DNA from: Atriophallophorus winterbourni
Lineage: Eukaryota; Platyhelminthes; Trematoda; Plagiorchiida; Microphallidae
DNA length: 64,000 bases
Direction: 5' to 3'
NCBI GenBank assembly: GCA_013407085.1
Contig: JACCGJ010004939.1
Location: forward strand, 60,190-124,189
Shown here: one piece after another, positions 21,535 through 41,675 of the stretch
Position numbering within the stretch: the first letter of the stretch is position 1
Layout: the number at the start of each line of letters is the position of its first letter
Notes under the pieces: model-generated
Databases searched by the model: none
What the model was told of the DNA's origin: nothing
Seen by the model: only the letters and a program-made list of their open reading frames with translations
Made by a program: the position numbers and the translations under genes

Positions 21535-21684
21535 ACAAACTCCAAGGTGTCATTTCGTGGCCATCGTTACATAAACTTTGCTGATGGATCACACCTTGGA
21601 ATTGCGAAAAACATATTTAGCCTCCTTGGCATGAACGAGAGTCGAAAGAGTCAGAAAGTTAATGTCTGGTTTTACGTCCTGTAG
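21535..21684 (+). CDS. Candidate exon of paralogue A
   Basis: A strong acceptor (pyrimidine tract cacctccccttgccag) precedes a phase-0 frame of 49 codons ending in TAG. It contains FRGHRYINF, which recalls LKGTRYIES in the gene C terminal exon, and KVNVWFYVL* at the end, like EVSNVQWY in gene E. It may be a terminal exon of an upstream, LINE-damaged paralogue. The resemblance is weak and no donor-bearing partner exon was found upstream, where LINE debris begins at about 21.3 kb. Confidence 0.4.
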   Translation, partial: TNSKVSFRGHRYINFADGSHLGIAKNIFSLLGMNESRKSQKVNVWFYVL

Positions 21685-21735
21685 CAGACATTTCATGGTC
21701 CTAATCCTAGAGGAGAATTAGTAGCTTTATTTCAG

Positions 21736-21981
21736 ATGTGTGCAAATGTCTACACATCAGAAATAGGTCAAGATTCAGTACAGACATTAAATTCGAGCTG
21801 CCGAAAACTGGTGGAGCTTAACTATTCGCGCGAGCAATTTCCGCTTTATGGCGGGGCTTATCTGGAGATGATCCCCTGCACATACACAGAGAATGTGATC
21901 AAAATAAAATTAGTGAATCTTTTAATTTACATATCTGTGAGCTTTCATTATTTGTATGAATTATCGGTGTCGACTGAGTAA
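21736..21981 (+). CDS. Candidate terminal exon of paralogue A
   Basis: The acceptor tagctttatttcag ends at 21,735. An open frame of 81 codons follows in phase 0, the phase used by the terminal exons of C, D and E. Within it AYLEMIPCTYTENV lines up with PAELMLRFVTKNVT of gene E. It ends just before the gene B promoter region. An alternative is that it starts a SEA-like exon, since those also begin in phase 0. Upstream exons were not found, so gene A may be partial or broken. Confidence 0.42.
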   Translation: MCANVYTSEIGQDSVQTLNSSCRKLVELNYSREQFPLYGGAYLEMIPCTYTENVIKIKLVNLLIYISVSFHYLYELSVSTE

Positions 21982-22110
21982 TGCGTTTTTCTCATCCATT
22001 CAAATATGTCCTACGAATTCACCACTCCAGTTTCAAACAGAAAACTATTGAGCGGCATGGTTACTAGTGTACGAATTTCCAATGGACCAATGAAAATTGA
22101 ATGACATGAA

Positions 22111-22118
22111 TATAAATA
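22111..22118 (+). promoter_or_regulatory. TATA-box candidate of gene B
   Basis: TATAAATA lies 34 bases before the gene B start codon and would give a very short 5' leader. TATA-like strings are common in this AT-rich DNA, so only position supports it. Confidence 0.3.
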
Positions 22119-22151
22119 AAGAGTATTTTTTGTTCGGAGATAAAGGCCAAA

Positions 22152-22209
22152 ATGTTAACCGTTATATTGCTACTGTCACTGCTCTCAGTTTTAACGGCAC
22201 ATGACCACA
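22152..22209 (+). CDS. Gene B exon 1, signal peptide
   Basis: ATG opens MLTVILLLSLLSVLTAHDH, a textbook signal peptide with a long Leu/Val core and cleavage likely after LTA. The donor GTAAGT follows directly, leaving phase 1. The length of 58 nt equals that of gene D exon 1. Confidence 0.75.
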
Positions 22210-24032: not shown

Positions 24033-24309
24033 AATTTTACACAAAATTGATGTAAATGAAACTAATATGTTCAAATAGCTTGAAAATGCTCCATATATCA
24101 AACCTACTATCCATTTTGATCGCAACGATATTTTTTCGGCTGATTACTGTACTTCTTTCAGAGCGTAGGATGCATTTTTTAAATAAAAATGCTCGTCACT
24201 GGTAAATAGGTTTCTAACAAAGAATCGCGATGTACATATATGGAAATTTCAAATCAATTGCTTGTCGAATGCTTGAGGCGCGTTAAAAATGACCAATTTA
24301 CTGAACAAG

Positions 24310-24430
24310 ATTTGCGCTTGTATGCCACTGCTGGATAAGCATGATGATCGTACAATTTATAACTGACGAGTGCAAATCAGAAACAACGAAGTCATGAGAT
24401 ATGTGTGATTGAAATGCATTCAATTGAGGA
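24310..24430 (+). repeat. Copy 2 of the gene-cluster intronic repeat
   Basis: It shares ttgcgcttgtatgccactg with 36,300 and a ctgacgagtgcaa block with the hammerhead-like core of the 36.3-36.7 kb copies, then tgtgtgattgaaatgcat. It lies between genes B and C. Confidence 0.6.
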
Positions 24431-24557
24431 TGTTTGACCAATTTAGTGACATGAGGATGGCATAGATTTGTGACGGTGGATAATTTAAATCTAATTTGAT
24501 ATTTGGTCACATATTCATAGTTGCTTAATCATGTAAACTGATTTTCTATATGAACAG

Positions 24558-24658
24558 AAGTAATTGTTGCTCATAATTTCGATTTCGACGAGCATATGTC
24601 GAAACAGATGAAATGCGGGCTACTGGAAAGAAACGTACTGTTTCGTACGTGTGATTAC
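24558..24658 (+). CDS. Gene C exon, phase 1 to 0
   Basis: Acceptor tatatgaacag, then 33 open codons including NFDFDEHMSKQMKCG and ending FRTCDY, donor GTAAGTG. The end resembles NSTCDL of the gene E 56-nt exon, so it could instead be a penultimate exon of another copy. Confidence 0.55.
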
Positions 24659-27600
24659 GTAAGTGTGAGCTTCTGTGAAATCTTTATCAAATTACAATGT
24701 TTCTACAATTTTAACTCGAACATTTCCTGCAACAAACACTTTGTTTCTCAAATTATTTCAAACAACTCTGTACGAAACAATATTCCTCAATTGAAAGCTT
24801 CTTGTGTTAACCGTAATCAATAATTTTTAGCAGATTCTCTTTAGAAACATGACTATTTTCAGTACAATCGTGCGAAATTAACGGGTAATGCAGATTGTGC
24901 AAATATTTAGGTAAATAGAAACTTAAATGCTATTTTTTACAACGTGGATAGAATAGTCTCGTTCATAAAGGCGTATTATGCTGGAAATCAAGTGAAATTT
25001 GATAATGGATATTAAACAAAAACGTGGTTCCTATATATATATCTTTATTCAAATTTCTTTTTCGGTGTACCATTTGAGCTTGCTTATTTATAGCCAATTT
25101 AAATTCTGAGAAACGTGCCAAATTATTTGTTTATTCACTTATACTTGAATACGAAAATACGAATTATGGTGTTTGGATTACAGGAAGAGCCATTGTACTT
25201 GATGGTGTAACAAAATAAGAAATGGGAATTCCTCACCATATATTAGTCCTGGTAATCAAACAGCTTTTGAAATTGAAATTGGTAGTAGTGCATAATTTGA
25301 TTCTGTTCGAGGAATATAATTTTAATATCGATATGGAAAACGCAAACATCTCAAAACTGTTTTGGCTTCAAGATCAACTCTTCAATGAGCTCTCCCAAAT
25401 ATCTCATACAAGCAATAGTTATTCGTTCAAATGGAGAAATTCAAATGCCCACATAATGGACGCAGTTAGGCAGGGCAGAAATAACTTGACTGGAATTGAA
25501 AAAGGAACATGTGAGAGGTAATATTATTGGTGAATGCAAAAGCTTATAGTTCAAGTAATATCTCGGCTCATTCGGTCGATGTCAACTAATGACGATTTTA
25601 TGTTTTGCGGAAATCTGATTCAGGTGAATAATCTCTTCCGCATCGCCTACAGCGATAGACAGTACACGAACGATCTGTGGTGTTTGCATGTTGTTTGAGT
25701 GACCAACCTCCAGCACCTGAAAGCAGTATCTGGTACTCCCTAGCATGCATGTGACACTTCACACAATAACACTAGAGAGCAGCCAAGAGCACGTAGTTCC
25801 GTGATCGTAAGATCTAGATCACGTTACTACAAGTGGTTCTGTTAAAAAGGACCAGCACAGAAGAATTAGGAACGAAGACCAAATATATGTTTATAAACGA
25901 TGCCTATAATGGTATTTTTGTTTTACTGGAATAAATGAACATTTCCGAACCTATAAGAAATATCTTCTCAGAACAATCATGCGTTGAACATCCTAATCAA
26001 TTGTATTCAGGCAATAGAACTTTGATGATATATTAGAATATTAACATTTTAATTGCATTCCAATTATTCCAAAAACCTTGTTCTTATATTTACAAAGGCC
26101 GTATCTCAAGACGCGCTTTTTGGGAATATTAACGATAATATTTTGCACTCAGTCATGATACAATTTTCCCGTAATTACTTCCTTCGAGATTGAGCTAATA
26201 TTTACCCATTGGAACATATTTTCAGGCTTTAACAAAAACGCAAGCGCGTGGCTGTCGACTACTGCGGTATTATGTTTTCGATTCAAAGTTGTTGCTTGTG
26301 GAATTAGAGTTGGATATCAAGTCGAAAGGTACAAATACCGAAACTGTGGCGCTTAAAACGGCACTCAAAATGAATGCATTGGGCTACAGAATGAAAGCAA
26401 TAACAGGTGATGCATTTCGTCTTATGTAAACGGGTTGAAACTACATTGCATCTTTTAACAATAAACGTCCAATCTTTATTGCAGGGAACCCGCAACTGCA
26501 AGATTCACCGCCATACAATTACAAAACCAGTGAGTTTGAAAAATATTAATAGCACAATTTAATAGCCTATTATCAGAAGTGCAACAGATGAGTGACACAA
26601 AAATTGTACAAATATTTCACAAACATCAAATCAGCATATTTTGATAGCATCATCAGTTTGATGTTCTTGGTGATGTTTGATCAATAAAATTTGTGTTGAG
26701 AGATAAAAAGTTATAAATTCTTTAACTAAAGTAAACGGATAAAATTACTTGAAATACGATAAACGAATAAACATTCTCTCCACATAAGTGTGTTTCACGC
26801 CGAGCTTAAATTAAAAGGTTCAGAGCTACGTGATTAAGAATAAAATACTCAAGCAAACTACGTCGAAATTTATGACACCAGTGCTGCTTTAAATGCTACT
26901 TAAGTCACCGTAGGAAATCCTCGGACATACACAGGGGCAGTTTGTGTTTGAAGATACTAGATTAAAGATTTTTGTGGCCACAAAAAGCAATCACCATCAC
27001 ATAGTAATCATTCGTTCACGAAAACGAAATAACACATAACCATGTAATGTCAAGTATAGTCAAGTTGAACCCATACCATGATTTGCTATTCAGAAGTCGT
27101 CAAATCATTATGCAACAAATACGTGTCCAAATTTCGAATGAATATTTCAACGCTGGAGGCAGTAACAATTGTTTCATTCCAGAAGAAACAAAATCGTACA
27201 GAAAGATAATACGTGAATGGGTAATTTTTATCGACACCGAGTGGCTGCGTGCATGTTGCGACTCACGTCATTATTATAAATGTTTTAAACAATGATGTGA
27301 AGTGACCATGATTATCCATCAGAAGTGCATAATTATCTCATTTTCCACACAGTTTGCTTTTAGGACCCGGTATGCTAAAAGGGAGAAACATGTGTCTAAC
27401 ATCTTTCAATCAGTCATTGCTATTTACATAGCTTATTAATAGTTTGGGAAAAAATTCGGATTAGCTCTCATATAATGGTCAAGTTTTGATTGGAATATAG
27501 ATACGCTGTTTGAGCTTACCAAATCGGAAGGTAGGGAATTCCAAGCAAAGCACACACGTACGGAATAAAAATACCTGTATCTGTTCCGTTTGGAATGTGG

Positions 27601-30600
27601 TATTTCCAAATTGTAACCATGGCCACGGCTGTTGCTGGAAGTGCGAAGGTGGAATAATATATCCAAGGGGTGGGAAACAGTAGTTAGTATTTTGTATGCG
27701 AGGATGAGATCACCTCGCATTCTCCTTTGTGCAAGTGTACTCATTTCCAGTTGTCTGAGTCGCCTGGCGAATGACATATTTTCGAGACCAATGACAAGCT
27801 TAGAAGCTCTCCGGTATATGCGAACCAGGAGTAAGATGTCTTTTTGGAGCAATTGTGTCCAGGCTTGTGAGGCATAATCTAGAACCGGGTGTATATATGT
27901 ATTCATCATGAAAGGAAAACACCCCGGGAAAATCGTCCAAATATCCGCCGTAGCATGCCGAGCAGCCGAGACGCGCTTTTGTAAACGGTTTCGCATTGTA
28001 GACCATTTTTCAAACTGCCGCAAATCCAGACACCTAGGTCCTTTTCTTTTTCAGTGTACTCCAGGTTAATGTCGCCGAGCTTGTATGGATAGGAAAAGCC
28101 AAGGTCACGACCAATCTGAATCATCTTCGACTTTTGCATATTCAATGACAGTTTATTTTCAGATGACCAGTTGAACAAAGCACTCAAATCGTTTTGCAGC
28201 AAGATACAATCGTCAGCATTTCTGATTTGCCTCCATACTTTTATATCGTCAGCAAACAAAACCATCTTACTATCATTTGGTAGTGGTATATCGTTCATAT
28301 AGACTAGAAACAGTATTGGTCCAAGCACTGAGCCTTGTGGAACTCCGCTAGTGACATCGATGTTCTTCGATAATAGGCCGTCCACACGAACTCGGATGTG
28401 TCTGTTGCTGAGGTAATCTCTTAGCAATTCGTATAGTCTTCCAACAACACCGTGTTTCTTTAGCTTGTTCAAGAGTAAATTGTGATCAACTCTGTCGAAC
28501 GCTTTAGAAATGTCCAGGTAGCACGCATGAATACAGCCCCCCGCATCTACAATCCTCGTCCAATCGTCTAAGCTTGTCAGCAAATTTGTTAGACAAGAGC
28601 GATTTCTGCGAAATCCATGTTGGGCAACTGCCAAAAGTTGATTCGTTTCCAGATGTCGCACGATTTCTGCGGTTATTATTCGCTCAAAATCTTTTGATAC
28701 CGAAGACAGCAAGGTCACCGGCCTGTAATTTTTAACATCAGAACGGCAACCACCTTTGTAAATGGGTATTATTTGTCCCAGTTTCCAGTCTTGTGGCACT
28801 ACGCCAGCTTGGAGCAAATTATTAAACATGCAAGATAGAGGTTCAGATAGCTGCGCATGGCAGGTTTTGAGCAGCTTTGGAGTTATCTCGTCTGGTCCTG
28901 GAGATTTCTTTACGTTTAATTTTCGTAAGTACTGCGCTACCACCATCGGAGTAATCAATACTTCACTCAAGGTCGGTCGGTCAAGTCGAACGATTGATTC
29001 CTGATCAGGCTCCATGGATTTCGGCGCAAAAACTCCGGCATAAAAGTCTGCTAACAGGTCAGCGGTCTGATTTATGGATTCTGTGAAGCCGGACGAAGTT
29101 TTCAGGGCAAAGACTCCTGGTTTAATATTTGTTCTATCGTTTACAAGTCTATACAAGAGCTTCGGATTCGGGTGCATCTGAGTAATCAATTGCGATTGGA
29201 ACGCTTGTTTATCATCTTGAATTAAGCTGATAACTTTGTTTCTCAGTCTTGTAAATTGTGCCCAAGAATCAGCTGTGTTGGTTGCCTTGTGAAACTCCCA
29301 CGCTACTGCCTTTTGTTTCATCCACTTTTTAGTCCTACTTCGTAGTAAAAATTTATATCGTTGAGACGTTTTCTTCGAAGCAAACATTGAATGTTCCTCC
29401 AATATAGATTTGAGGTGCTGTAAGAGAGATCGCCAATGACTATCCGGATTGGAGTAATCCAGTTGTGCGAAACTAGTGCTTTGTAACTCGGCACACAGAG
29501 CACGGAGGTTCACTTTTCTGACGCATTTTGTCCCGTCACTATTGCGTCTAGCGCTACAAACGTACTCGAATTCTAGGACAACGTGATCGTTTCGTCCGAT
29601 CGGTGGTTTATAAACGATATTCTCAACAGCTGTGGGATCTGATGTAAGTATAAGGTCCAAGGTAGACGGCTGGTCTGATCCTCTCATACGAGTAAATCCA
29701 AAAACGTGGTTATAAAGGGGTGCGTAATCCAAAACGGCTGGAAGTTTATTTTCAAGTGCCTCTGATGCATGATCATTCCGGATATAAAGCTGGGGAATGT
29801 TGAAATCCCCCATTTTTAATATTTGAGTATTGTATCGCGTTGTTACATAGCGCGAAGCATTAATCAGTTTATTGTTTAGATCGAGAGTTGCTGTTGGAGA
29901 ACGATAGATCACTCCAATAATGCATTGGTCTCCTGAAGTAAGAGTCAGAGAACACCAAAGTGTGTCAGTGATATCAAGGATCACGTCGTTCATAGCTCTA
30001 CAGATAAACGATTGCTTGAAGTAGAGTGCTGCTCCTCCGCCATTGCCTAAACGGTCACGCCGAAATAGAGACATGTTGGGCAAAGAGAGTTCATTATCAG
30101 ACAATGAGGCATGGAACCACGTTTCTGTTACTGCAACTATGTCTGGCGCCGTTTCATAACAAATCTCGAACAATTCGATTAATTTGTTGAAAAGGCTGTT
30201 CGTGTTTGTATAGATGCACTTAATCGTATTTTTCGTGAGTAATGACGGGGTGGTAAGCGAAGTTATAAGTCCGGCTTCTTTGGATGGTAAAACATGTGTG
30301 CGTCTTATTGGTCGCCGACGGCTTGAATCGACAATTAGTTTTCGGTGTGAATTGCTCAGTCCGACTCGATTTGAGCCTCCTTTTGGATGGAAACGCTGCT
30401 ATCCGCTATCTCCAAGCGGGAGAGTGTTTGACTTGGTTGGGGTGGGCTAAGTCTAACATCCTTGGGTAATGTTCGTTTCCCTTTTGTCCATTCCGACCTT
30501 ACTATTTCAGCCATAGCATTGGTGAAGAACGTCATCATCAGAGGTTTCGGTCCATCCTCCTTGTTTTTTGGCGAAAAAGGAACTCGAAAAGTGTCCACAA

Positions 30601-33600
30601 CAACGGCATTAGAAATATCGAGAGAACACGCAATGTAGCGCCATTGTTTGACGTCGTGCTCTACGGTTTCCTGATTCGATGCTCTAGAAATATTTTCTGG
30701 TACACCAAGTAGAACTATACTTAACGATACCGTTTGTTTCCTGGCTTTCAAGCTGCCCTTCCTTTCCCACCATGGTACATCGGGATATATGCGGCAGTTT
30801 GAGTCGGAATCTGACTTGAGTAGGTATGCATTCAGCAATACGTTCTCGATATCAGCCTAGCATTTCAGTGTTACCTTGAGCAAGCGAGGTTGACCAATAT
30901 GAGGTGGAGTTGAATGCCGGGTTAGACGAGTCACTTTTATGCGTTTACGTGTTCAATTTTCATTAGGTGACAAAGCTCAGACCATTTATCCACATCGTGT
31001 TTCTGTTTGCTATCAAACAGTCTTTCTTGGGACTCGCTGACATTCGTACATATCACGTTCAGCCTGTATAGGGTGTTCTTTTTTCGTATCGGAAAGTCAG
31101 GCGTTTTAGAATTAAAAACGTTTGTGGCGTGACTTTGCGAGTCGGGTACAGCAGTTTTGGATTGTACAGCTGAGGTCGACCGTAACAGCATATCTTTGTA
31201 AGAATTTCCTACTTCTGTGGTCGTTTTAGCTGATTCCAAACGGGAATAACCCTGCTTTTTGGCTTTTTTGGCACGCGAATAGCCTTAGTCTTAGATTCCT
31301 TCAATGGTGTTTCCGAAATCGATGTATTGATATGATGGTTTGCATTAGTGATCCGTTGCGTACTCAAATGATTTACCAACATTTCTTCCACACGTCGAAG
31401 GCCTAACTCCAAACCGGCCAATCTATTTTCTATTTTTGTTTCAAAAGTATCGGCTTTGTGCAAAGATGTAGCTCTGCAACGAACACAGATATAGCATGCA
31501 CCTGGAACCCTTTCATTATTTAATAATGCTATCCAGTCAGGGGCTAATGTATGGTCGCATTTACCATGGATTTTACCCATACACAGAAAACACGTTATTA
31601 CTTTACGCGCCATGGGACTCACCGGTTGTTCGCATGCTTTGCACGTGACTTCGGGACAATTCTGCGTGTCGAGATTCGTCCTATCAGTTGGGCCGGCCGT
31701 GACCATTGTTGCGTTCGCCGGATCCAGGCCCTTGGCAATGAGGTCAAGTTGGTTCGATGTCGCTGCCACCGTTTGATCGATCGATTTTTTAGTCCATATG
31801 TTGGTTCTCGTGATGCGGTGAAACAAGTTAGAAGCCTGAAATGGGTTGTTCGGCTGTGTGACGGGTTTTTGTTCGACGGGTCGAGGTGGCTGTTTTGGAA
31901 CACGTGATTTCGTCATGTTGCAAATAATCCAATATAACTCGTTAACTACACAAGCTAGAACACAGAAATAAGTATCAAAATTCGTTGCTCGACGTGATCC
32001 TTGCAATGATAGCAAAAACCGTAGAATAGTTAGCGATTGAAAAAAGTGTGCGCGCGTGAGCAAACTGTGAAATTTACGCCGATATGATAACTTTGCTGCT
32101 AATCCGTTAACAAGAGAAAAACAAATAAATTCCGATAGATATGATCGAAAGTAGCACAGAATTTTTGGAATGAGAGAAATCCAAGCAGAATCAGCGAAGA
32201 TATGAGCAGACGTGTCAGAGCAACAAAAAAATGCGACTGCACAGTATAAGTCAGGGTTGGTTCAAGCTGACAATGGTAAAAGTGACAAACTGATAGCTAG
32301 AAGATGTGACGTTACCACAGATTGTAGGATATTAACGAAAAGCGATTCATTAAATAATTATTATTATTTTGAGTAAAAACGATATGACAGCTCTGGACAT
32401 AGAAGTAAAACGTTCTCTTGACCTCTTACAATAAGGATACTGTATATAGCTCGTCTGCTAGCCGAGGCAGAGCAAATACTGATTTCGCCTGCTGAACACA
32501 GATTCAAGATTCAAGAATTTATGGTTACAAAAAGCACATAGCTTCACAATTACCATATCATAGTAAATATGCGTTCAACAAGAGGTATAAAAAAATCAAT
32601 TATACGATGTCACTGCTTACCCTGAGTCAATACACAGGCATCGTCAAATCGTTATGTAACAAATAATTGTCCAAGGTTTTGGTGAATGTTTGGATACAGG
32701 GAGAGGTGATAATTGCTTCGGGAATGGCATTCCACAGGAAACAGACGCGTACCGAATAGAAATATCGGCGACAATTAGTCCGGGAATGGGGAATTTGTAG
32801 TGCCGCTGAGTGGCTACGTGTAATTCCTAATTCACGGTATTTGAACAAATGTTTAAGTGGATGATCTGGAGTATTCAATATCTTGTAAGTAATGATAACG
32901 TCACTTCGAAGTCTACGTTGGAGGGGAGTGGGTCTACGTTGGAGGGCCATAAATGTGTAACAGACATTGATCGACTAAACGGGAGAGATTTCTCTTCCCG
33001 AATCGTACTGTTTAGTCATTGGAAATCCATTGTAGCATGAAACCCTGTTGCGCATTTTTATTGTAATTCCATGGTAGACATGGGCCGAAGGAGGCCAATA
33101 TCGGTAATTTTTATTAATTAATTTGCAAAAGTGTTTCAAATATTACATATTTTCATCGTGGAGGATGACATTGATTAAACAGAATGATTCTTGGTCAGTG
33201 AGAGATTGCTGACGGCATAACCCTTAATAAAATATGAGATAGAATGCTCATGTTGGTACCATCAAGATATCGGTAGCATTTGTCAAGGAAATTAAGATAA
33301 ACATTTATCGGCTTTCGAATAAAGAAGTACTTTTAAATCATTCTGAAACGTATAACAACAGACAATAACAAAATCAGTATTTAGACTGCGTTTTCGGATA
33401 TCACTTTATAGTTGCAGATGGTAATTTGGCTAAATATCGTTATCAACGATGTAAACTTATACCAGAAAAATTTAATTTTTATTCTCCACCACATTTCCAT
33501 TCCTGGATTCAAGTATTCAAGTATTCAAGGATTTATGGTTAAAAAGTTATTTCTTTACATCTCCACAATTCCACATTATGAAAGAAAATGTGAAAAATAT

Positions 33601-35029
33601 AAAAGCGCAAAAGCGATATGGAATATCCAATTTAAGGCTCACGAATGATGTGCTTTTGCATGTATAAGTTCAATTTTGCTTTAAACACCGCCAGGCCATT
33701 AGAGTCCGCCGCATGCTGGGGTATGGAATTCCAAAGAATTATAGCACCTACGGCGAAAAAATGGAGTTGACAATACGGGAACTTGGGTTGTAAAGGAATT
33801 AGGTTTGTCCGCGTGTCACTTTCTCATCACACACATCAATCAAGTATTTATGTACATGTCCTTCAGTGACAATTCTATAGGTCAGAATAATATCGCGCCG
33901 TATACTTCTTTCGGTAACGTCACATAGGCCCGAACGTCGCAATCTTTCGATGTACGGAACACTGCGGAATATTGTTCTGAGCATAAATCATTTTATGCTG
34001 TAGTATGTTTCGGTATTTATAGCATTGGAAATTATGTACTGATAAACAAAAAATTTAAAAATATGCGGATCAATTACTATAATGCGTTTATTTCCATTAA
34101 ATTTAACCAAACGCGTCATGATTGTATTCGATAACTTAGATGCAACATATCAAATCACCCCTGACATCTGCCACCGATGCTCCAGATTTAATCTAAACTA
34201 ATTCCTTTTCAGCTTACCATATTTGGGTTCCGTATGGTTCCATGTTAAACAATTTACATCGTCCGATTAACCAAAATCATATCTCTAGTGACAACATAGC
34301 TTCGGTCCGGAATTCAGTAAGTCACCCATTTTTGAATAATGTTATCTGACAATATGTTGGCGTTTAATTGAAGATTCAGTGCATCTGTTGCTTCATTTAT
34401 TTATCCTTCCAAGCACAATGATTTACACTTAACTGGTCAAATCTTGCTCAAGTCGTCTAAATTAAGTACACTATAACAAACATTTCAATAACAAACAGGA
34501 CATCATTTATTACAGCCATATTTTCAATATCATGGCATCAGTGTGTTGAAAGGTTTTGTATCAAAATTCACAAGTTATTCAGTGAAATTCATCCAGTAGT
34601 GCGGAACAGGAGGCATAATCCTATGTGTTTGAGCATTGCATATCGTGTGGAATAATAATTTAAAATGACTACACATCATGGGAGCTTACATACACAAGAA
34701 CATTTTGTAAATATGTTTATGTTAAACATTTGATTAAAGCATCAGGAAAATGTTTAATTCACTGTATGTGATTAATATATTTTTAACAGTTGTGGTCATT
34801 TTTCTCGTTATTTGGATCGAACGTGAGGGTTAGTGGAATACGTGGAAGAACGTTGAAAGGTACACGCTACATCGAATCGATCGTTGAGTTAAACATGCAC
34901 GCGAATCCACAATTCATTGTCCATCCGGAAAACTGGCCCTTATCATTCTGGCCAATGATTTCGTTCCATCTTTCGATCAAAGATCTTTACAAATATGAAC
35001 TTTTTCCGGAAATGCGTAAGACAACTTGA
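24558..35029 (+). CDS. Gene C: MEG-like secreted/surface protein with a LINE-filled intron
   Basis: Exons supported by splice sites and continuous phase: 24,558-24,658 (101 nt, phase 1 to 0, donor GTAAGT), 26,226-26,406 (181 nt, 0 to 1), 26,485-26,529 (45-nt micro-exon, 1 to 1), 34,213-34,316 (104 nt, 1 to 0, donor GTAAGT) and 34,790-35,029 (terminal, phase 0, stop TGA). AATAAA follows at 35,138. The 181-nt exon carries the SEA-like pattern GCRLLRYYVF...LLLVELELDI and ends MKAITG. The intron from 26,530 to 34,212 is mostly LINEs. Exon 1 was not found. An alternative second exon (about 25,549-25,633, ending ATTCAG|gtgaat) also fits the phases. A nuclear-encoded small extracellular protein of unknown function is inferred. 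Confidence 0.6.
26226..26406 (+). CDS. Gene C SEA-like exon
   Basis: Acceptor ggaacatattttcag; 60 open codons starting ALTKTQARGCRLLRYY and ending YRMKAIT plus one base; donor gtgatg. The spacing of Cys, alternating hydrophobics and a following helix matches the gene E exon at 40,409-40,616 and the gene D exon ending VSRVLTG. Confidence 0.65.
26485..26529 (+). CDS. Gene C micro-exon (45 nt)
   Basis: Acceptor caatctttattgcag and donor GTGAGT bound exactly 45 bases, phase 1 to 1, giving NPQLQDSPPYNYKT. It keeps the frame whether included or skipped, a hallmark of MEG-type genes. Gene E has a 45-nt exon in the same place. Confidence 0.7.
26955..27300 (-). mobile_element. CR1-like LINE 3' fragment
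   Basis: It begins with an agattaaaga-type tail, then the antisense of the LINE C-terminus. The plus-strand frame at 27,047-27,295 mirrors the same shadow frame over 32,690-32,850. It is a truncated insertion in the gene C intron. Confidence 0.6.
27436..28023 (-). CDS. CR1 ORF2 C-terminal part (frameshifted)
   Basis: 195 codons in a different frame from the main ORF2, overlapping its end at 27,906-28,023. It has the post-RT region with YIHPVLDYASQAW, RRMRGDLILAYKI and FYSVRVCFAWNSLP. A single frameshift around 27,910-28,020 explains the split. The related copies at 13.1 and 63.2 kb have the same C-terminus. Confidence 0.8.
   Translation of the reverse strand: MRQFEKWSTMRNRLQKRVSAARHATADIWTIFPGCFPFMMNTYIHPVLDYASQAWTQLLQKDILLLVRIYRRASKLVIGLENMSFARRLRQLEMSTLAQRRMRGDLILAYKILTTVSHPLDILFHLRTSSNSRGHGYNLEIPHSKRNRYRYFYSVRVCFAWNSLPSDLVSSNSVSIFQSKLDHYMRANPNFFPNY
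27906..30173 (-). CDS. CR1 ORF2: endonuclease-reverse transcriptase
   Basis: The 755-codon frame is also open upstream of its first ATG to about 30,320 (TNTNSLFNKLIELFEICYE), so the listed start is not the true one. The APE-type endonuclease has IVAVTETWFH (catalytic Glu), LKMGDFNIPQL, STLDLILTS and GRNDHVVLEF. The RT has KSPGPDEITPKLLK, QHGFRRNRSCLTNLLTSLDD, CYLDISKAFDRVDH, SGVPQGSVLGPILF and MVLFADDIKVW (FADD at about 28,245-28,256). It nicks target DNA and reverse-transcribes the element RNA there. All key residues seen are present. It ends in a frameshift before the C-terminal region. Confidence 0.88.
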   Translation of the reverse strand: MFEICYETAPDIVAVTETWFHASLSDNELSLPNMSLFRRDRLGNGGGAALYFKQSFICRAMNDVILDITDTLWCSLTLTSGDQCIIGVIYRSPTATLDLNNKLINASRYVTTRYNTQILKMGDFNIPQLYIRNDHASEALENKLPAVLDYAPLYNHVFGFTRMRGSDQPSTLDLILTSDPTAVENIVYKPPIGRNDHVVLEFEYVCSARRNSDGTKCVRKVNLRALCAELQSTSFAQLDYSNPDSHWRSLLQHLKSILEEHSMFASKKTSQRYKFLLRSRTKKWMKQKAVAWEFHKATNTADSWAQFTRLRNKVISLIQDDKQAFQSQLITQMHPNPKLLYRLVNDRTNIKPGVFALKTSSGFTESINQTADLLADFYAGVFAPKSMEPDQESIVRLDRPTLSEVLITPMVVAQYLRKLNVKKSPGPDEITPKLLKTCHAQLSEPLSCMFNNLLQAGVVPQDWKLGQIIPIYKGGCRSDVKNYRPVTLLSSVSKDFERIITAEIVRHLETNQLLAVAQHGFRRNRSCLTNLLTSLDDWTRIVDAGGCIHACYLDISKAFDRVDHNLLLNKLKKHGVVGRLYELLRDYLSNRHIRVRVDGLLSKNIDVTSGVPQGSVLGPILFLVYMNDIPLPNDSKMVLFADDIKVWRQIRNADDCILLQNDLSALFNWSSENKLSLNMQKSKMIQIGRDLGFSYPYKLGDINLEYTEKEKDLGVWICGSLKNGLQCETVYKSASRLLGMLRRIFGRFSRGVFLS
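30356..30838 (-). pseudogene. CR1 ORF1 C-terminal part (frameshifted)
   Basis: 160 codons with DCRIYPDVPWWERK-like sequence (read SNCRIYPDVPWWERKGSL) and FRVPFSPKNKEDGPK. The same blocks appear at 16,000-16,300 and 38,260-38,560, so they are conserved ORF1 C-terminal features. Together with 30,937-31,239 it continues ORF1 after frame breaks. No known enzymatic motif was recognised. Confidence 0.65.
31209..32063 (-). CDS. CR1 ORF1 with PHD-type zinc finger
   Basis: 284 codons. Around residues 140-200 the Cys/His order is C-x2-C, C-x2-C (TCFLCMG), H-x2-C (KIHGKCDH), C-x2-C (CYICVRC), the Cys4-His-Cys3 pattern of a PHD finger known in ORF1 of several CR1 elements. A helical stretch (ENRLAGLELGLRRVEEML) follows, probably for self-association. 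ORF1 proteins bind element RNA and act as chaperones. The frame breaks near 31,209 and continues in others to about 30,360. Confidence 0.78.
   Translation of the reverse strand: MLTRAHFFQSLTILRFLLSLQGSRRATNFDTYFCVLACVVNELYWIICNMTKSRVPKQPPRPVEQKPVTQPNNPFQASNLFHRITRTNIWTKKSIDQTVAATSNQLDLIAKGLDPANATMVTAGPTDRTNLDTQNCPEVTCKACEQPVSPMARKVITCFLCMGKIHGKCDHTLAPDWIALLNNERVPGACYICVRCRATSLHKADTFETKIENRLAGLELGLRRVEEMLVNHLSTQRITNANHHINTSISETPLKESKTKAIRVPKKPKSRVIPVWNQLKRPQK
32301..32439. other. Short spacer in gene C intron
   Basis: AT-rich sequence between the CR1 leader and the RTE tail fragment. No gene-like feature was seen. Confidence 0.4.
32440..33060 (+). mobile_element. RTE-like LINE tail split by a CR1 3' fragment
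   Basis: 32,440-32,512 (tagccgaggcagagcaaata) and about 32,950-33,060 (cgggagagatttctcttccc, ttagtcattggaa) match the two parts of the RTE C-terminal zinc-finger region seen at 47,500-47,680. The gap between them holds a minus-strand CR1 end. Confidence 0.6.
32512..32950 (-). mobile_element. CR1-like LINE 3' fragment nested in the RTE tail
   Basis: It starts with agattcaagattcaagaatt, the simple-repeat 3' tail of this family. The minus-strand frame 32,950-32,627 reads RLRSDVIITYKILNTPDHPL and YFYSVRVCFLWNAIP, the LINE C-terminus. Confidence 0.75.
33061..33500. other. Gene C intron spacer
   Basis: AT-rich, no coding signal. Only short chance frames were seen. Confidence 0.4.
33505..33995 (-). 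mobile_element. CR1-like LINE 3' fragment
   Basis: It begins with gattcaagtattcaagtatt repeats. The minus-strand frame 33,984-33,799 has IERLRRSGLCDVTERSIRRD and ILTYRIV, the CR1 C-terminus. It is 5' truncated. Confidence 0.65.
34213..34316 (+). CDS. Gene C penultimate exon, phase 1 to 0
   Basis: Acceptor ctaattccttttcag and donor GTAAGT bound 104 bases with one fully open frame (YHIWVPYGSMLNN ... ASVRNS). The phases agree with the 45-nt micro-exon before and the terminal exon after. Confidence 0.65.
34790..35029 (+). CDS. Gene C terminal exon
   Basis: Acceptor atatatttttaacag ends at 34,789. The phase-0 frame of 79 codons runs to TGA, with LKGTRYIESIVELN, a VHPENWPL segment and the conserved LYKYELFPEM near the end. 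The first codon is TTG, as expected of an internal exon start. Confidence 0.65.
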   Translation: MWSFFSLFGSNVRVSGIRGRTLKGTRYIESIVELNMHANPQFIVHPENWPLSFWPMISFHLSIKDLYKYELFPEMRKTT

Positions 35030-35043: not shown

Positions 35044-35047
<4 letters not shown>

Positions 35048-35089: not shown

Positions 35090-35091
<2 letters not shown>

Positions 35092-35452
35092 TATAGTACA
35101 ATTTCGTATAGTGCAGAATTCTGTTACTGGTTGCAAAAATAAATGAATAAAATTCGGCTAGTTGATTCATCACATTTTTCTATTTTTGAAATCAAAAATG
35201 TATGATCAAACGTCGAAAAGCTATACAAGAACGAGGTACTAACTGTTAGCTGAAATATTGCTAAATCAAAATATCTGTTTGAAATTGTTACCTGCTGACG
35301 TTTGCCTCCAAACACAACTTCGTTGAGATCAACAAACATTTTTCTAAACTATATAAAGCTTACTCACTTTCCAGTACACACGTCTCATTAGGTTCGTTTT
35401 ATAGGAGACGGATAAAAGATAAAATATCAATAAAATATATCAAGGCCAGGGA

Positions 35453-35510
35453 ATGGAAATATTCTTCATCAAAACAATTATTAATCTGGGTCAACTATTT
35501 CGTGTATCAG
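35453..35510 (+). CDS. Gene D exon 1, signal peptide
   Basis: ATG opens MEIFFIKTIINLGQLFRVS and the donor gtatac leaves phase 1. At 58 nt it is the same length as gene B exon 1. The hydrophobic core is weaker than in B. Confidence 0.5.
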
Positions 35511-37801
35511 GTATACGGAATAACCACAATTGCACAATCGTTTTCTGAGTCATGTTCATTAGAGTGCACATTTCTCCTTGCTAAGTGTTAAACGCTGAAG
35601 TGAACAATAGGAACCACATGAGCCGTTGAAAAATTTAATCCATCGAAACCATCCCTGATAATCATGTTCAATTTTTTTGCATCACATCTATATCAATTTA
35701 CCTACAGAAACTCATCGTATTAAACATCGAACGATGATCTTAAAATGATTTTCTCAAAGCTTATGTTTATTATATAAACGTTTGGGCAACGAAATTGATG
35801 ATATCTCCAGTGAACCTGTTTTGAAATGATAATCCATCAAAATTAACGGCATTCTCGTGTCCATTCATTTTTGTGTTTGTGCTCTGTATTCACTACTGTG
35901 TGTTGGTCGACAGCAATAGTCGATGGCAGTATCACGGTGAATTGTGTTACGCGTCTATTTTCACCTTTTGAAATTTGCTTGCAGTTTCTGGTCACCAATT
36001 AATACATCTTTTTTCAATTTGTGTTGTTTCTCGTGATATTTGATATATTGTATCTGAACATATTCGACGTCCGTTTGGTCACATGTGTAATATGTGACCT
36101 GTTTACACAACATGATGCTTCCCGCAATTTATGCATAAGAGTTTTAGGAAGCAATGTATAAATTCTCATTTAAGAGTATGTCTTCAACATCGCTGAGTCC
36201 ACTATGCGGTGCTGATATTGGTTAATGCTAATGTTTTTCTTCAAGTGTACCGAAGACTCAAGAGATGAATGTTTACTAAGTATCATAGATGTATATAATT
36301 TGCGCTTGTATGCCACTGTTTAATAAAGTTGGTGAGCGTACTTGTCGACAATTCTTCGACTTATTCAAGCTCATGCGTATCCCGATCATACTCTCCCTAC
36401 CTGATGAGTGCAAACAGCACGAGCTTGGTCGTAGTTTATGTGTGTTGGAAGGAAATGCATGCAAATGAGCTGTTTTGTTCATTGTCATGGGTTCAGACCT
36501 AGTCAACATGAGTGTGCCTTAGGTGATTGAACAGGTTGGTCACTCCAACCTTATCCAACAGTGACATACAAACGCAACTTCTCTACCATTCTTCCACTGT
36601 TTCAATCGCATGCTGACGCTAATCCTACTGCCCTTCCTGATGAGTGCAATCAGCACGAATCCGGTCGTGGGGTGTGTGATTGAAATGCATGCAAACGACC
36701 TTTTTTGATCTTAGATGTATGTTGTTATGTTTTGTTTTGTTGTTAGTTCAACATTTATCCGGTGATTTTGCTTGGTCTCCTGGCTAAGCATGATAAACTT
36801 AAGTTTTCAATCTTCTGACTTGTGATTTGCAAACATCCATATCTTTTATATCCGAAAGGTTAAGCAAAATTCCCTATCAGTTTCATTTAAGAAATCTTAA
36901 CCGGTGAAATTTACAGAAGTAGCCTTGCATTAATCAAACATTTCACTTTTTACAATGGTATTCTAATTGGAATAAAGAGATTTTCGTTTCACGTATTACG
37001 CTTGGCATACATGAAATGTTTCGTGTGTTATTAGGTGATCTCAATTTACACGTCTTCTGTTCATCAACTACTATATTGTTGTCTTTCAAGACAAACGTAA
37101 CAACTGGAACAAATTTTAAGTGTCAGTCAATTTCCGATTTTTATTCCTCCACCAATCCTCATATTGCTCCATTTATTAGTAACAAATCTAATGTGAAGCT
37201 CCTGATTGTAAGCAGGGTACTAACTGGTGACGATCACAAGCACGAATCACCTGAATAGCTCACGCGAATCTAAAGTTTTCCAAATATTTCCGGTTAAGTT
37301 CATTTATCGTTTGGTTTACAGATCCGGATATGAAACGAGATGTAACTGGTGAGTCTGAAAATATTTGTGTTTGAGAAGTGTTTGAAAATATTACAGCTAG
37401 GCGAATCACTCGAACCATTACTGATTACATACCAACAGAGTCGAACACATTTGTAGACGTTTATCAGTGACATTTATTGTGTCAAACTAGGAAACATTAA
37501 AGTACGGTATTTTGATTTTTGATTTTGATAATGTACATTATTCTTGCGATCAAACAGACTTGTAATTGCCTCTTGCAAACCGGAAAGTATATAATTTGGC
37601 ATTAAACAAGGATGACAGTATAATTTTATTAACTAAAGTTTTTATATCCATTTATTACAAATACCTGAAGCTGAATATTGGGCTTCTCAGGCGACACCCT
37701 GTAGTATAAATGGTAAACTGGTTTTAAACAAGGTTTTATGTGACTCACGATTTGCGCAAATGTTGTTCTGTACAAAGACAAATATACGAACAAAGCCATA
37801 A
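35453..37801 (+). CDS. Gene D: MEG-like secreted protein, complete exon set
   Basis: Exons: 35,453-35,510 (58 nt, to phase 1), 35,914-35,936 (23 nt, 1 to 0), about 36,980-37,226 (0 to 1; this acceptor is the least certain), 37,322-37,348 (27-nt micro-exon, 1 to 1), 37,397-37,452 (56 nt, 1 to 0) and 37,691-37,801 (terminal, stop TAA). AATAAA is at 38,018. All junction phases agree. The intron between 37,349 and 37,396 is only 48 nt. Exon 1 joins exon 2 as VSA-IVDGSIT, a plausible signal cleavage site. The 0-to-1 exon has SSTTILLSFKTN and ends VSRVLTG, matching C and E. The product is a small, presumably secreted protein of unknown role. Confidence 0.6.
35914..35936 (+). CDS. Gene D exon 2 (23 nt, phase 1 to 0)
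   Basis: A long pyrimidine-rich acceptor (to gtcgacag at 35,913) and donor gtgaat enclose 23 bases. If unspliced, the frame reads on to TAA at 36,002 with FSPFEICLQFLVTN, which itself resembles the gene E terminal exon (YPAELMLRFVTKN). An alternative short terminal exon is therefore possible. Confidence 0.45.
36290..36510 (+). repeat. Copy 3 of the gene-cluster repeat, hammerhead-like core
   Basis: It contains ctgatgagtgcaaacagcac followed by gag: the CUGAUGA core string, a 4-bp perfect stem GUGC/GCAC with a 5-base loop, then GA. A gaaatgcatgcaaa block follows. It lies in the gene D intron, in tandem with copy 4 about 210 bp later. Confidence 0.55.
36511..36715 (+). repeat. Copy 4 of the gene-cluster repeat, hammerhead-like core
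   Basis: It contains ctgatgagtgcaatcagcac followed by gaat, then ccggtcgtggggtgtgtgat and gaaatgcatgcaaa. The CUGAUGA-stem II-GAA arrangement is that of a hammerhead ribozyme, but the base after GAA is T where A is usual, and I could not pair stems I and III convincingly. Confidence 0.5.
36980..37226 (+). CDS. Gene D SEA-like exon
   Basis: The frame is open from 36,923. The donor at ACTG|gtgacg gives phase 1, as in genes C and E. The acceptor aataaagag at 36,979 is the only one giving phase 0 that I see, and it is weak. Pattern: NLHVFCSSTTILLSF, then a hydrophilic helix-like region and RVLTG. Confidence 0.5.
37322..37348 (+). CDS. Gene D micro-exon (27 nt)
   Basis: Acceptor cgtttggtttacag and donor GTGAGT bound exactly 27 bases, phase 1 to 1 (DPDMKRDVT across the joins). 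Skipping it would remove nine residues without a frameshift. Confidence 0.7.
37397..37452 (+). CDS. Gene D penultimate exon (56 nt)
   Basis: Acceptor gaaaatattacag, a 56-base frame (RRITRTITDYIPTESNTF), donor gtagac. The gene E equivalent at 40,828-40,883 is also exactly 56 nt and phase 1 to 0, which supports the otherwise weak donor. Confidence 0.6.
37691..37801 (+). CDS. Gene D terminal exon
   Basis: Acceptor tattgggcttctcag, phase-0 frame of 36 codons to TAA. FAQMLFCTKTNIRTKP recalls ELMLRFVTKN and YTKPYM of the gene E terminal exon. Confidence 0.55.
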   Translation, partial: ATPCSINGKLVLNKVLCDSRFAQMLFCTKTNIRTKP

Positions 37802-38092
37802 GCAATGCATTAGGCTAAATTCCATCATCAAACCTAGTCTCGGACGAAACAACTAATTTATATCAAAAACGTAATAAAGAGGGCTTAAAAAATGTATTTT
37901 GTTGATTACCTCAACTCACTAAGAGCGTTTTCCGTCTATTCACCAAATACGGTTATAGATACGGAGCCTTTAATCCGTTGTGAATTGGTAAACGAAGTTA
38001 TGCTTTAAAGCCGCTTTAATAAAAAATTCCTACAGGAAACAACGATGTTCAAGATTTAAGATTCATGATTCAAGAATTTATGGTATAAAAAT

Positions 38093-38131
38093 CTATATAT
38101 ATATATAATATATATATCTATATATATGATC

Positions 38132-38163
<32 letters not shown>

Positions 38164-38180
38164 ATATATTATATATCTCT
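38093..38180. repeat. TA-rich microsatellite
   Basis: Imperfect (TA)n with interspersed c and a bases. Confidence 0.9.
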
Positions 38181-38661
38181 ATATGCGATGCCGAAGTTTA
38201 TTATGATTTTGCTTTCCATTTGCCCCTAATTGTTTTATCATACCTTTCGTTAAATTTGTTGTTTGTAGAGGTTTGGGACCGTCACCTTTATAGTTTGGTG
38301 ACAGAGGTATTCTAAGCCTGTCCACCACGACTGACTCGTGACCTTCGATACTGTTGCCAACGTTGAGCCACTGTTTTAATCGTGGTGCTGTATTTCATAT
38401 TCCGAAGCAGTTTTAGTGTGTTCATGATCACTAGGAATAAACATACTGTGTTGGTTAGATTATCCCATGTTTTAAATTACCTTTTCTCTTCAACCACGGA
38501 ATATCAGCATGTATGCCACATTTAGTCTGTGAACATGCACAGAGCAAGTTAGAGTTTACAAGAAGGTCTTCCATCACTTTTTGACTTGTAAGTGTTTTCC
38601 TCAGTAAACGTGGTTCGTCAAAATGAGAAGAATTGGCTGCCGACTTAGGTGGGTTATTGAA

Positions 38662-39207
38662 TTAGGCAGTATCGAGCTCATACCCGCCATTGAACACAGC
38701 TGGTACAATTTTTTTTAATTTCGTGAGTTCTTCTACTTGAGAAATTGTCCCGGATGTCTCCGGCAAATCAGTGAACATTACACTGAGATTCATCAAATTT
38801 GTTTTTATTTCAGTATTTGTTTTGGAGACAGAGGAATTCTGCTGATGCACAGTCAGTAGATACCCCTTCAACTTTTCAAGCTCAATAACATCTGAGTAGC
38901 ATCTAGCGTGTGTATCACTAAACCCTTCAGCCTCCCGCAAATTCTCTTTACGTAGCGGAGCATCTTTTGAATTTACGGGATGTAGCGTTGAGTTTAGGTT
39001 GGTTTCACTTTTCAGTGAGTTATTGTGGACATTTACCATCGATTTTAATGTTTCCTCGAATTTTTGAGAACCGTTCTCTAACTGTTTGAGTCGATCTTCA
39101 AGGTCTCCTGATTGTGATACATTGGTCTCACTGCCGTTTAACGGCTTTGTTCTACAGACACTTGGAAGTTCAGCGTTATTAATAAAGACAACTGCCCCTT
39201 TAGTCAA
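38662..39207 (-). pseudogene. CR1 ORF1-like coiled-coil fragment
   Basis: 181 codons with a heptad-like stretch (LEDRLKQLENGSQKFEETL) and a helical Leu/Lys-rich end. The usual PHD finger is not visible in this frame. Its position between ORF1 C-terminal blocks and the CR1 leader supports ORF1. Confidence 0.55.
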
Positions 39208-39479
39208 AGCTTTATCGCAATTATTGTGTATTATGGTAGATCACATATAACAAATGATTATTTTCGAGTTCACATTTACCCCCTTTTTGCACATTTTAAA
39301 CAAATCATTCGTAGTTTTCTAGGATTCTGACATCCGATAGCAGTTGAGGTCAAGGTCGTTTGATTGTTGAATGTGGGTTTAGATAGACTTGGAGTCCATC
39401 AAATATCATACAACAGAACAAATCCAGTGAAGATATGATCATAAGTATCGGAGCAACAAAAATGCGACCGCACAGCACC

Positions 39480-40269
39480 TTCAATGTTCGTCTGAATCCT
39501 TATCATGTGTTTGATCAAGATTCACATCGTGATTCCTTAGTTGAATAGTTTTATTCAATGTACCAACCATATTATAAAATTCAAAAGAAGTTGGCTTGTC
39601 CGAATGACTTAGAGTTTATCAGTTCAAGGAACCTGCAATGCTATTCGGTGGTATTTTATGGCCTAAAGGAAATTAATATTTATACCCTGAAATTTATTTT
39701 GAATGAATAAAAGAGTGAAGCTATTTTATCTTCCATTTATATTTGAAATTGTTGATCAAGTCAATTGATGCCAATAATGAAAAAAACCCATTTTGTTTGT
39801 GCGCAATAGGAAAATACTTTGAAAAATGCTTTAGCATTAGATTATTTTCGTTCAATGGTATTAACGATAATAATGTCTGCATACATGGTTTAATCTTATT
39901 CCAATGCAATAATGAAATACGTTTAACTGATGGTGCCATGAATATATTCATGCTATTGGCTTTGAAACAAAGTTAAACTCAGAAGCCACTCTTAATCAGT
40001 TTGGCACAGCTAACCTTCGGATGAACTATCCACATAGTGGATCTAATTTAACCGACCAACACAATGGAAATGATCAGTTTTCGAATTACTAAAACGAGGA
40101 GCAAGTAAGTGTTATTCACAACATTTGTTGTTCAAAATATCGATCATATGACTCTAAAATTACCACAACCCAAGTTCATTTAAATTCAAAGTTAGAATTT
40201 TTAATTACTGTGACTTTACATCTATATTCACTCGATTGAACTCATGACATATTGCTTTCCTGTTTTTAG
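39480..40269. other. Region upstream of gene E
   Basis: It should hold exon 1 of gene E, but none with a good signal peptide and phase-1 donor was found. An ATG at 40,064 leads to a GTAAGTG donor at 40,105 but in phase 2, which does not fit. Short frames at 39,560 and 39,743 look like chance. Confidence 0.4.
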
Positions 40270-40331
40270 TTGTGCAGTTGAATATAATTGCGCCATTGAT
40301 ATTAGTGGTCCCGATCGTCGAGTGCCCACAG
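40270..40331 (+). CDS. Gene E exon, phase 1 to 0
   Basis: Acceptor tttcctgtttttag, donor GTAAGC. A second frame (AVEYNCAIDISGPDRRVPT) is also open but would enter the next exon in a frame with an early stop, so the hydrophobic frame is preferred. Confidence 0.6.
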
Positions 40332-41675
40332 GTAAGCTGAGCTCTGACTAACAAACGCTAATTTCGTGCATCCACACCTCATTTGTGCGATGTCTCCCTT
40401 TATCACAGGCTGTGCAACATTTCACTCAAACTTTGAATAAAGAAGTTATCCACTGCGACCTACGGTTGAGTGAAAATGGTGCCTCGTATATTTACACGAG
40501 AGTACAACTAACATTCAAAGGGAATGTAGAACTGGCCTCAATTATCAGTGATCAGGCTAGAGCTTCAAGGACGTTTGAATACACTGCGAGGTTACTAGAA
40601 GGGGCGGCTCATTATGGCAAGTCTACAGTTTGAAATACATTGGTTTGCTTAAATCATATCACTTCAGGATAATTCACATACTGAATAATTGTTTGCAGAA
40701 TACTATTACCACAAATGTACTTCTACTGAAACCGGGACAGTTTGTAAGTTTGATTCACTGCTAAATTAAGAATACGAGAAATTGAAAGTGGCAAATTGTT
40801 TTTAAAAATTTTGATTTCACAATTTAGCTCTGAAAATCGATATGATTGCTGGCATTGTTGCAACCAATTCAACATGTGATCTGGTAAGAAATCATCGCTA
40901 GAATGTGTTGAAATTTTATTATAATAATGTGCTAGTGCAAAGGTGCAGAACATTGTATAAACTCAGCTGGATTTTATGTTTCATTTGTTAGCATTTTCGT
41001 ACAAATTTTACTAAGATAAATCTAGTTCGTTTTCAAGCGAATTTTATATAATATTGAACTCATCAGTTACTGGTTAGAAATTTGAGGAAAAGTCATTATG
41101 CCAATGACTAGTAGTATATTTTATAGATCTTATTTTGCGCATGCTGGTTGAAAACAGATACAGTGAAATATGGGCTTTATCTCTCTGAAATATCTACACT
41201 CCGGGATTATAAGCAACAACATATATGAAGTAATAAATATTAAAAGTCTAGTTAAATTCGTATTTGGTAATTAAGAAATAGGTCGTGGGGAATTCATGAG
41301 TGTGGATTTTGATCACCTCGCATAAATAGCAATTAAACTGTGTCACCAACAGCAACAAAATTGTCAATAATGTGTTTTTCATTTACAATAACTCTACCTA
41401 CCAAATCTGTACATATAAATAAATTTTATCATTCGCTGCGTTCCTTCTTCATGCTTACTTTTACCAAGGTACTTCCGGTAATCATTGAGGAATCACCCGT
41501 CGCGTCATGTCATGCTGTGTCCACTCGAGCCTTAAACGTCGACATGCAGGTCTTGAATCCAACATGGTTCTATCCGGCTGAGCTCATGCTTCGTTTCGTC
41601 ACGAAAAACGTTACAGAGGTCTCCAACGTACAGTGGTACACCAAACCTTATATGGATCACGATCAACAAACCTAA
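40270..41675 (+). CDS. Gene E: MEG-like secreted/surface protein
   Basis: Exons: 40,270-40,331 (62 nt, phase 1 to 0, donor GTAAGC), 40,409-40,616 (208 nt, 0 to 1, GC-type donor GCAAGT), 40,699-40,743 (45-nt micro-exon, 1 to 1, donor GTAAGT), 40,828-40,883 (56 nt, 1 to 0, donor GTAAGA) and 41,469-41,675 (terminal, stop TAA; AATAAA at 41,769). All phases join, and every exon is open in only the required frame or nearly so. The first visible exon encodes a hydrophobic run (NIIAPLILVVPIVEC) that may complete a signal peptide or act as an anchor. The terminal exon has ALNVDMQVLNPTWFYPAELM. Exon 1 is missing. Function is unknown. This is the clearest model in the cluster. Confidence 0.65.
40409..40616 (+). 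CDS. Gene E SEA-like exon
   Basis: Acceptor ccctttatcacag. Open only in phase 0: AVQHFTQTLNKEVIHCDLRL, then IYTRVQLTFKGN and FEYTARLLEG. It ends ATTATG|GCAAGT, a canonical GC donor. It lines up with the gene C exon at 26,226. Confidence 0.7.
40699..40743 (+). CDS. Gene E micro-exon (45 nt)
   Basis: Acceptor ataattgtttgcag and donor GTAAGT bound exactly 45 bases, phase 1 to 1 (EYYYHKCTSTETGTV). Same length and phase as in gene C. Confidence 0.72.
40828..40883 (+). CDS. Gene E penultimate exon (56 nt)
   Basis: Acceptor gatttcacaatttag, donor GTAAGA, frame LKIDMIAGIVATNSTCDL. Same size and phases as gene D 37,397-37,452. Confidence 0.7.
41469..41675 (+). CDS. Gene E terminal exon
   Basis: Acceptor acttttaccaag, 68 codons in phase 0 (VLPVIIEESPVASCHAVS ... 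YTKPYMDHDQQT) to TAA. The frame is also open upstream of the acceptor, so a longer exon cannot be excluded by sequence alone. Confidence 0.65.
   Translation, partial: VLPVIIEESPVASCHAVSTRALNVDMQVLNPTWFYPAELMLRFVTKNVTEVSNVQWYTKPYMDHDQQT

Follow-up and report, generated by a model that had tools for sequence, protein, structure and literature searches.

The question raised by this locus of the trematode Atriophallophorus winterbourni is whether a 20-kb run of short plus-strand exons belongs to several small genes in tandem or to a single long one. The window analysed is a stretch of 64,000 nucleotides, positions 60190-124189 of contig C3499 (JACCGJ010004939.1) in a 537-Mb assembly of 15,840 contigs. 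A first-pass annotation of the window, made from its letters alone, had proposed up to five tandem paralogues, A to E, coding for secreted proteins in the manner of the schistosome micro-exon genes (MEGs). Of that proposal, the hidden plus-strand secreted-protein exons with their kept plan and symmetric micro-exons were upheld, while the division into as many as five tandem genes was not. The exons most probably form one plus-strand gene for a secreted protein (22152-41675), a better reading of the sequence than five small genes.

When the 12 coding exons (Table 1) were joined in frame, they gave a coding sequence (CDS) of 1320 bp and 439 amino acids with a single stop, located at the end. After removal of the predicted signal peptide the protein would have about 420 amino acids, with 8 cysteines and 2 N-glycosylation motifs. 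The signal exon ends in phase 1 and is followed by four exon pairs, here called modules 1 to 4, in which the first exon runs from phase 1 to phase 0 and the second from phase 0 to phase 1; three micro-exons of 45, 27 and 45 bp, phase 1 at both ends, serve as linkers. Exon pairs 2+3, 5+6 and 8+9 measure 282, 330 and 270 bp and are all symmetric (1-1), so that each pair, like each micro-exon, constitutes a symmetric cassette.

Table 1. Coordinates of the candidate gene and associated features in the window (phases given as start>end; rows are those of the alignment of genomic copies; the distant copy is that at 58-82 kb of contig C9388)
Feature	Position	Strand	Remarks
TATA-like site	22111..22118	+	About 41 bases 5′ of start codon; weak, 37 TATA-like matches in 21001-42500; kept before signal exon in C9388
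Exon 1, start codon and predicted signal peptide (MLTVILLLSLLSVLTAHDH)	22152..22209	+	Donor phase 1; hydropathy; kept in C9388 copy
Exon 2, module 1 first exon	24558..24658	+	101 bp, 1>0; distant copy 101 bp
Exon 3, module 1 second exon	26226..26406	+	181 bp, 0>1; distant copy 181 bp
Exon 4, micro-exon	26485..26529	+	45 bp, 1>1; 45 bp in C9388
Exon 5, module 2 first exon	34213..34316	+	104 bp, 1>0
Exon 6, module 2 second exon	34790..35015	+	226 bp, 0>1; motif P-x-x-W ... E-Y/K-Y region ... P
Exon 7, micro-exon	37322..37348	+	27 bp, 1>1; AG, GT and length in 10/10 covering rows, 6 distinct; candidate 27-bp counterpart in C9388
Exon 8, module 3 first exon	40270..40331	+	62 bp, 1>0; 12/12 covering rows, 7 distinct; distant copy 59 bp
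Exon 9, module 3 second exon	40409..40616	+	208 bp, 0>1, GC donor; 12/12 rows open, 10 distinct; distant copy 208 bp, GT donor
Exon 10, micro-exon	40699..40743	+	45 bp, 1>1; 12/12 covering rows, 6 distinct; distant copy 45 bp
Exon 11, module 4 first exon	40828..40883	+	56 bp, 1>0; 12/12 covering rows, 7 distinct; distant copy 56 bp
Exon 12, module 4 second exon and stop codon	41469..41675	+	207 bp; 13/13 rows frame-kept to near end, length 11/13; distant copy 201 bp
AATAAA, possible polyadenylation signal	41769..41774	+	Weak; 49 AATAAA/ATTAAA matches in 21001-42500
Long interspersed nuclear element (LINE) in intron 4, presumably CR1-like	27400..32300 (limits approximate)	-	Endonuclease-reverse transcriptase open reading frame (ORF) 27906-30398; outside gene product
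Decayed paralogous module 1	7546..8735	+	Both exons; in-frame stop in second
Second decayed paralogous module 1	49670..50858	+	Same in-frame stop

Splice-site scans combined with translation recovered the exons earlier assigned to C and E; the E exons joined in frame and the phases of the C exons matched. A template test on splice scores gave 64.7 for chain E and 60.2 for chain C. For comparison, the highest-scoring chance chain in the rest of the window reached 63.0, and the top score among 20 Markov sequences was 58.8. The top-scoring chain of the region (73.1) consisted of D and E exons plus a repeat and was partly rejected later. As E stood barely above and C below the best chance chain, the splice scores are no proof, and the proof is carried by the copies elsewhere in the genome.

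Copies across the genome

The genome was searched with the 3′ half of the gene and then with the 5′ half; the exon searches returned at least 71 and at least 80 places among the matches listed. The 3′-half exons were found in order in contigs C10721, C7208, C7200, C13394, C10545, C15522, C2268, C2908 and C9388. With the window included, exon 9 was present at 73% identity or more in at least 12 places in the 3′-half search, and exon 6 likewise in at least 12 places at 73% or more in the 5′-half search, which placed more 5′ exons ahead of exon 6 in several contigs. Close copies, with protein identities of 73-93% per exon, thus lie at about a dozen places, a number that is not a gene count because some contigs may be alleles. 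The signal exon was matched in C7208, C13394, C10721 and C9388, and the matches extend into the intron. The 5′ and 3′ halves occur in fixed order on one strand in eight contigs besides the window, namely all those listed above except C2908. The 81-kb contig C10721 has exon 6 at two positions (8.7 and 56.8 kb) and exon 9 at three (3.4, 51.9 and 80.8 kb). The family has expanded by copying of a unit some 20 kb long, in this contig at least twice.

Frames and splice sites were preserved in exons 1-6 of C9388 and in exons 2, 3, 5 and 6 of C10545. Copies were aligned in 14 rows, of which L041 and L042 span only the last exon; rows without a given exon were excluded exon by exon, and many rows are near-identical, leaving 6-11 distinct sequences for each exon. 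Over 35.7-42.5 kb, the copies share 75-95% identity in their main aligned DNA blocks. Exons 8-11 are open, equal in length and bounded by identical splice sites in all 12 covering rows, and the acceptor AG of every exon from 37322 on is intact in all of the 10-13 rows that cover it. The stop position of exon 12 moves by a few codons among the rows (11 distinct sequences).

A more distant copy, at 58-82 kb of C9388, has exons of 101, 181, 226, 59, 208, 45, 56 and 201 bp, versus 101, 181, 226, 62, 208, 45, 56 and 207 bp in the window, with a protein identity of 34-52% where the searches scored exons; the comparison of lengths covers exons 2, 3, 6 and 8-12. The earlier view that the proteins had diverged while the exon plan was kept therefore holds for this relative elsewhere in the genome, not for side-by-side copies within 20 kb. 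Weaker relatives occur on further contigs; on C4279, an exon-6-like and an exon-12-like match share a strand and are separated by 9 kb, each with E > 2. Taken together, the sequences describe a gene family whose close copies, at about a dozen places, are themselves diverging, and which also has more diverged members.

Within the window, 7410-10120 and 49534-52227 are 93% identical over 2.7 kb, and each holds a decayed module 1 with its intron retained and one in-frame stop in common. The second exons of these decayed modules are 73-75% identical to the distant C9388 copy versus 48-49% to the window gene.

Exon 6 and alternative gene models

The phases proposed in the first-pass annotation agreed with ours, except that the exon at 34790 (exon 6), taken there as terminal, reads from phase 0 to phase 1. 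A GT in phase 1 follows exon 6 in all 17 sequences compared, that is, the window and 16 others, 8 of which are only 23-45% identical to the window; in 6 of the 17, reading on past the exon without splicing leads to a stop in the first five codons. Four residues of exon 6 are invariant in these sequences (W, P, Y and P), the last two being spanned by the motif KYELFP. The constant phase-1 GT implies that the gene continues, and the next supported phase-1 acceptor is that of the 27-bp exon at 37322; exon 6 is accordingly read as internal, not terminal. Three points argue for one four-module gene rather than five: this donor, the absence of any second signal exon that is conserved, and the constant exon order in eight other contigs.

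Five tandem paralogous MEG-like genes would account for the phase plan shared by C and E and for the recurrence of KYELFP in B. Of the exons proposed in the first pass, the copies elsewhere in the genome bore out the signal exon, all five exons of C, all five of E and the micro-exon of D. The long exon of D (37035-37226), however, is open with a donor in only 3 of the 10 covering rows, being broken by stops or frameshifts in 7 and lacking a GT donor in 4; VLTG is not conserved as an exon end in D, and no D exon carrying the supposed ELMLRFVTKN-like block was found. The reading of A (21688-21981) is upset by a 1-bp indel in the close copy L080. In B (23806-24030), KYELFP is present, as had been claimed, and the stretch is well conserved, but a frameshift in the close copy L078 breaks the proposed reading. 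The LLEG given as an exon end in E is not one: the exon runs on for four more codons and one base, up to a conserved GC donor. The signal-like frames at 34750 and 36719 were rejected because divergent copies do not keep them. Direct similarity among the terminal exons of A, B, C and E (6 pairs) and among the middle exons of C, D and E (3 pairs) did not exceed that of shuffled sequences, except for B-C through KYELFP (7/1000 shuffles), so that paralogy within the 20 kb cannot be demonstrated from the window alone. With exon 6 internal as well, five genes are extremely improbable.

Several observations nevertheless weigh against a single gene. In the window the exon 6 donor is weak (3.2 bits in the splice model) and a stop stands four codons past the exon, while the 27-bp exon contains an ATG in all 10 covering rows, in which exon 8 is hydrophobic, making a second gene start possible there. 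These features would fit two adjacent genes per unit, the first (22152-35029) ending with exon 6 and the second running from the ATG at 37330 to 41675, exons 7 and 8 each coding for part of its signal peptide. Such an arrangement sits poorly with a GT present after exon 6 in every sequence when a near stop is found in about a third of them, and with an AG retained ahead of the 27-bp exon in 10/10 rows. Between the exon-6 and exon-8 counterparts of the distant copy, moreover, a 27-bp 1>1 candidate (EQFQNDVT versus PDMKRDVT in the window) has no in-frame ATG, and the exon-8 counterpart is not signal-like by eye. Less favourable to one gene, this candidate was the third of ten listed short candidates, and the same stretch of the distant copy has three sites with signal-like frames, one of these frames occurring twice; their donors score 3.6-4.6 bits. 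On balance, two genes per unit appear rather unlikely. The generic coding score also counted against the model without being decisive, averaging -0.01 per codon across an earlier exon set that included B and the long D exon; by exon it was 0.03-0.11 for exons 2, 3, 6, 7, 8, 9, 11 and 12 and negative for 1, 4, 5 and 10. That the exons are non-functional remnants, or frames left open by chance in DNA full of repeats, could be suspected from the failure of splice scores alone to single out chain C, from unguided exon chains that pass through LINE sequence, and from the stops in the two module-1 copies of the window. Frame, length and splice sites are preserved both in copies with 75-95% identity in their main blocks and in one copy with 34% protein identity; this preservation and the low pooled ratio of nonsynonymous to synonymous differences (pN/pS) of micro-exon 10 (0.17), make this explanation very improbable, and one 12-exon gene is the model retained below.

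The part of intron 1 that includes B (23790-24110) is 91.5% identical to C10545, versus an average of 82% for the longer alignment, and is open there with 13 base differences and 10 residue changes. In L078 the stretch is frameshifted near its start; it may be an alternative exon or a conserved non-coding element.

Modules, splicing and known families

Similarity between the modules was not detected at the sequence level. Profile comparison (hhalign) gave a probability below 1% for 6/6 module pairs and so lent no support to common descent of the modules, and MAFFT gave no usable alignment of the window's own second exons. In modules 1, 3 and 4 a cysteine lies just ahead of the inner phase-0 intron and a second one 10-16 residues beyond that intron, as judged by eye; module 2 has no such pair. 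The phase plan and this cysteine pair suggest that the exon pairs may be repeats of one domain.

Among nine copies (36 pairs, which share history and are not independent), the ratio of nonsynonymous to synonymous substitution rates (dN/dS) was 0.34-1.66, with 33 pairs below 1 and 31 within 0.4-0.9. Pooled pN/pS was 1.68 for exon 8, 0.80 for exon 9, 0.53 for exon 11 and 0.54 for exon 12. The donor of exon 9 is GC in 12/12 rows and GT in the distant copy. Intron 9 (40617-40698) shows 93% identity in seven divergent rows (two pairs near-identical), versus 89.5% for exon 9 and a median of 73% over 93 non-exon windows; if it is not spliced out, a stop comes six codons later in 10 of 12 rows, the exceptions being L038 and L039. 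The conservation of intron 9 suggests regulated splicing, gene conversion being the other reading. The first 50 bases past the stop (41680-41729) are 94% identical in divergent copies, above the last exon.

These properties outline how the gene may work. The protein would be released at the surface of the egg or at one that faces the host. Changes of amino acid may be tolerated or favoured there, as the dN/dS of most pairs would allow, with exon lengths staying nearly fixed. Symmetric cassettes would let modules or linkers be skipped without a frameshift, and the GC donor and conserved intron before the third micro-exon may point to regulation of that splice step. We tentatively propose, as a possibility short of an even chance, a trematode family with a cassette system distinct from MEGs, in which four two-exon modules are joined by symmetric micro-exon linkers, one splice step is held by a conserved GC donor and intron, duplication and skipping both yield variants, and the modules have diverged beyond detectable similarity with exon lengths and phases fixed.

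The MEG-like class proposed earlier does not apply. According to PMC5825161, MEGs have about 80% of their coding region in symmetric exons of 6-36 bp, and PMC10526429 describes them by short exons of up to 81 bp. Here, exons of 36 bp or less make up 27/1320 bp (2%) of the CDS, exons of 81 bp or less 22%, and the three micro-exons 117/1320 bp (9%). By these shares the gene falls outside the schistosome MEGs, although it may function in a similar way. Exon 1, by its hydropathy and its conservation in C9388, is a predicted signal-peptide exon as in MEGs, and the symmetric micro-exons, secreted product and elevated dN/dS are likewise shared with them (PMC4350168). The Schistosoma japonicum SEA-domain family, according to PMC3886910, bears a signal, comprises about 27 duplicons formed by repeat-mediated DNA duplication and has no readily identifiable sequence homolog. 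It resembles the present family in duplication and in the lack of sequence homologs (sought here by half-gene queries) and differs in having one domain of about 120 amino acids, in contrast to four exon-pair modules. Group 1 venom allergen-like (VAL) families of schistosomes are also secreted, expanded and fixed in exon number (PMC4350168); unlike them, the exons scanned here list no CAP domain in Pfam.

The SEA-like exon of the first-pass annotation found no support in Pfam or in low-confidence structure models. For modules 3-4, scanned up to an E of 1, Pfam listed no SEA match; modules 1-2 and the 17 exon-6 sequences had none even up to an E of 10. As to the ferredoxin-like beta-alpha fold of SEA domains, AlphaFold models of two single exons alone were of low confidence and mutually discordant, one having three strands (predicted local distance difference test, pLDDT, 52) and the other being all helix (pLDDT 61). 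A DUF5091 match at E 0.1 was dismissed as chance, and a profile of the 17 exon-6 sequences had no match in the PDB. Half-gene queries of protein databases had no match at E up to 10, under filters that capped protein length at 1.75 times that of the query (334 and 423 amino acids) and so exclude a 439-amino-acid relative. As these searches were blind to relatives of that length, members of the family may already be listed as hypothetical proteins in public proteomes; a control search with the LINE ORF established that the protein database includes Paragonimus and Dicrocoelium. Among the matches listed in literature searches, no paper dealt with micro-exon genes built on this plan in organisms other than schistosomes.

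Exons of 27-62 bp, a GC donor and a LINE in an intron make this a secreted fluke family that ordinary annotation likely misses, and exact exon borders are now provided for testing. The exon plan, preserved at 34% protein identity, could serve as a marker for relatives in other flukes. If cassettes are skipped in transcripts, the family would represent a second route, beside MEGs, to variable secreted fluke proteins.

Transposable elements and other window features

The exon frames are not explained by a transposon, in agreement with the first-pass annotation: Pfam scans of the exons gave no transposon domain, and the LINE within the gene sits in intron 4 on the opposite strand. The ORF of this LINE, which we take to be CR1-like, has protein matches of 49% in Paragonimus westermani and 39% in Dicrocoelium. 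A second non-LTR (long terminal repeat) element lies at 52676-55759 (+), with a 553-amino-acid frame containing a reverse transcriptase domain. At 3452-6037 (-) there is a retroelement with an aspartyl protease match (Pfam RVP) and integrase-like frames recognized by eye. Between exons 6 and 7, a 102-amino-acid open frame at 35283-35588 (+) has a sub-threshold match to CRAL_TRIO_N (E 0.0027).

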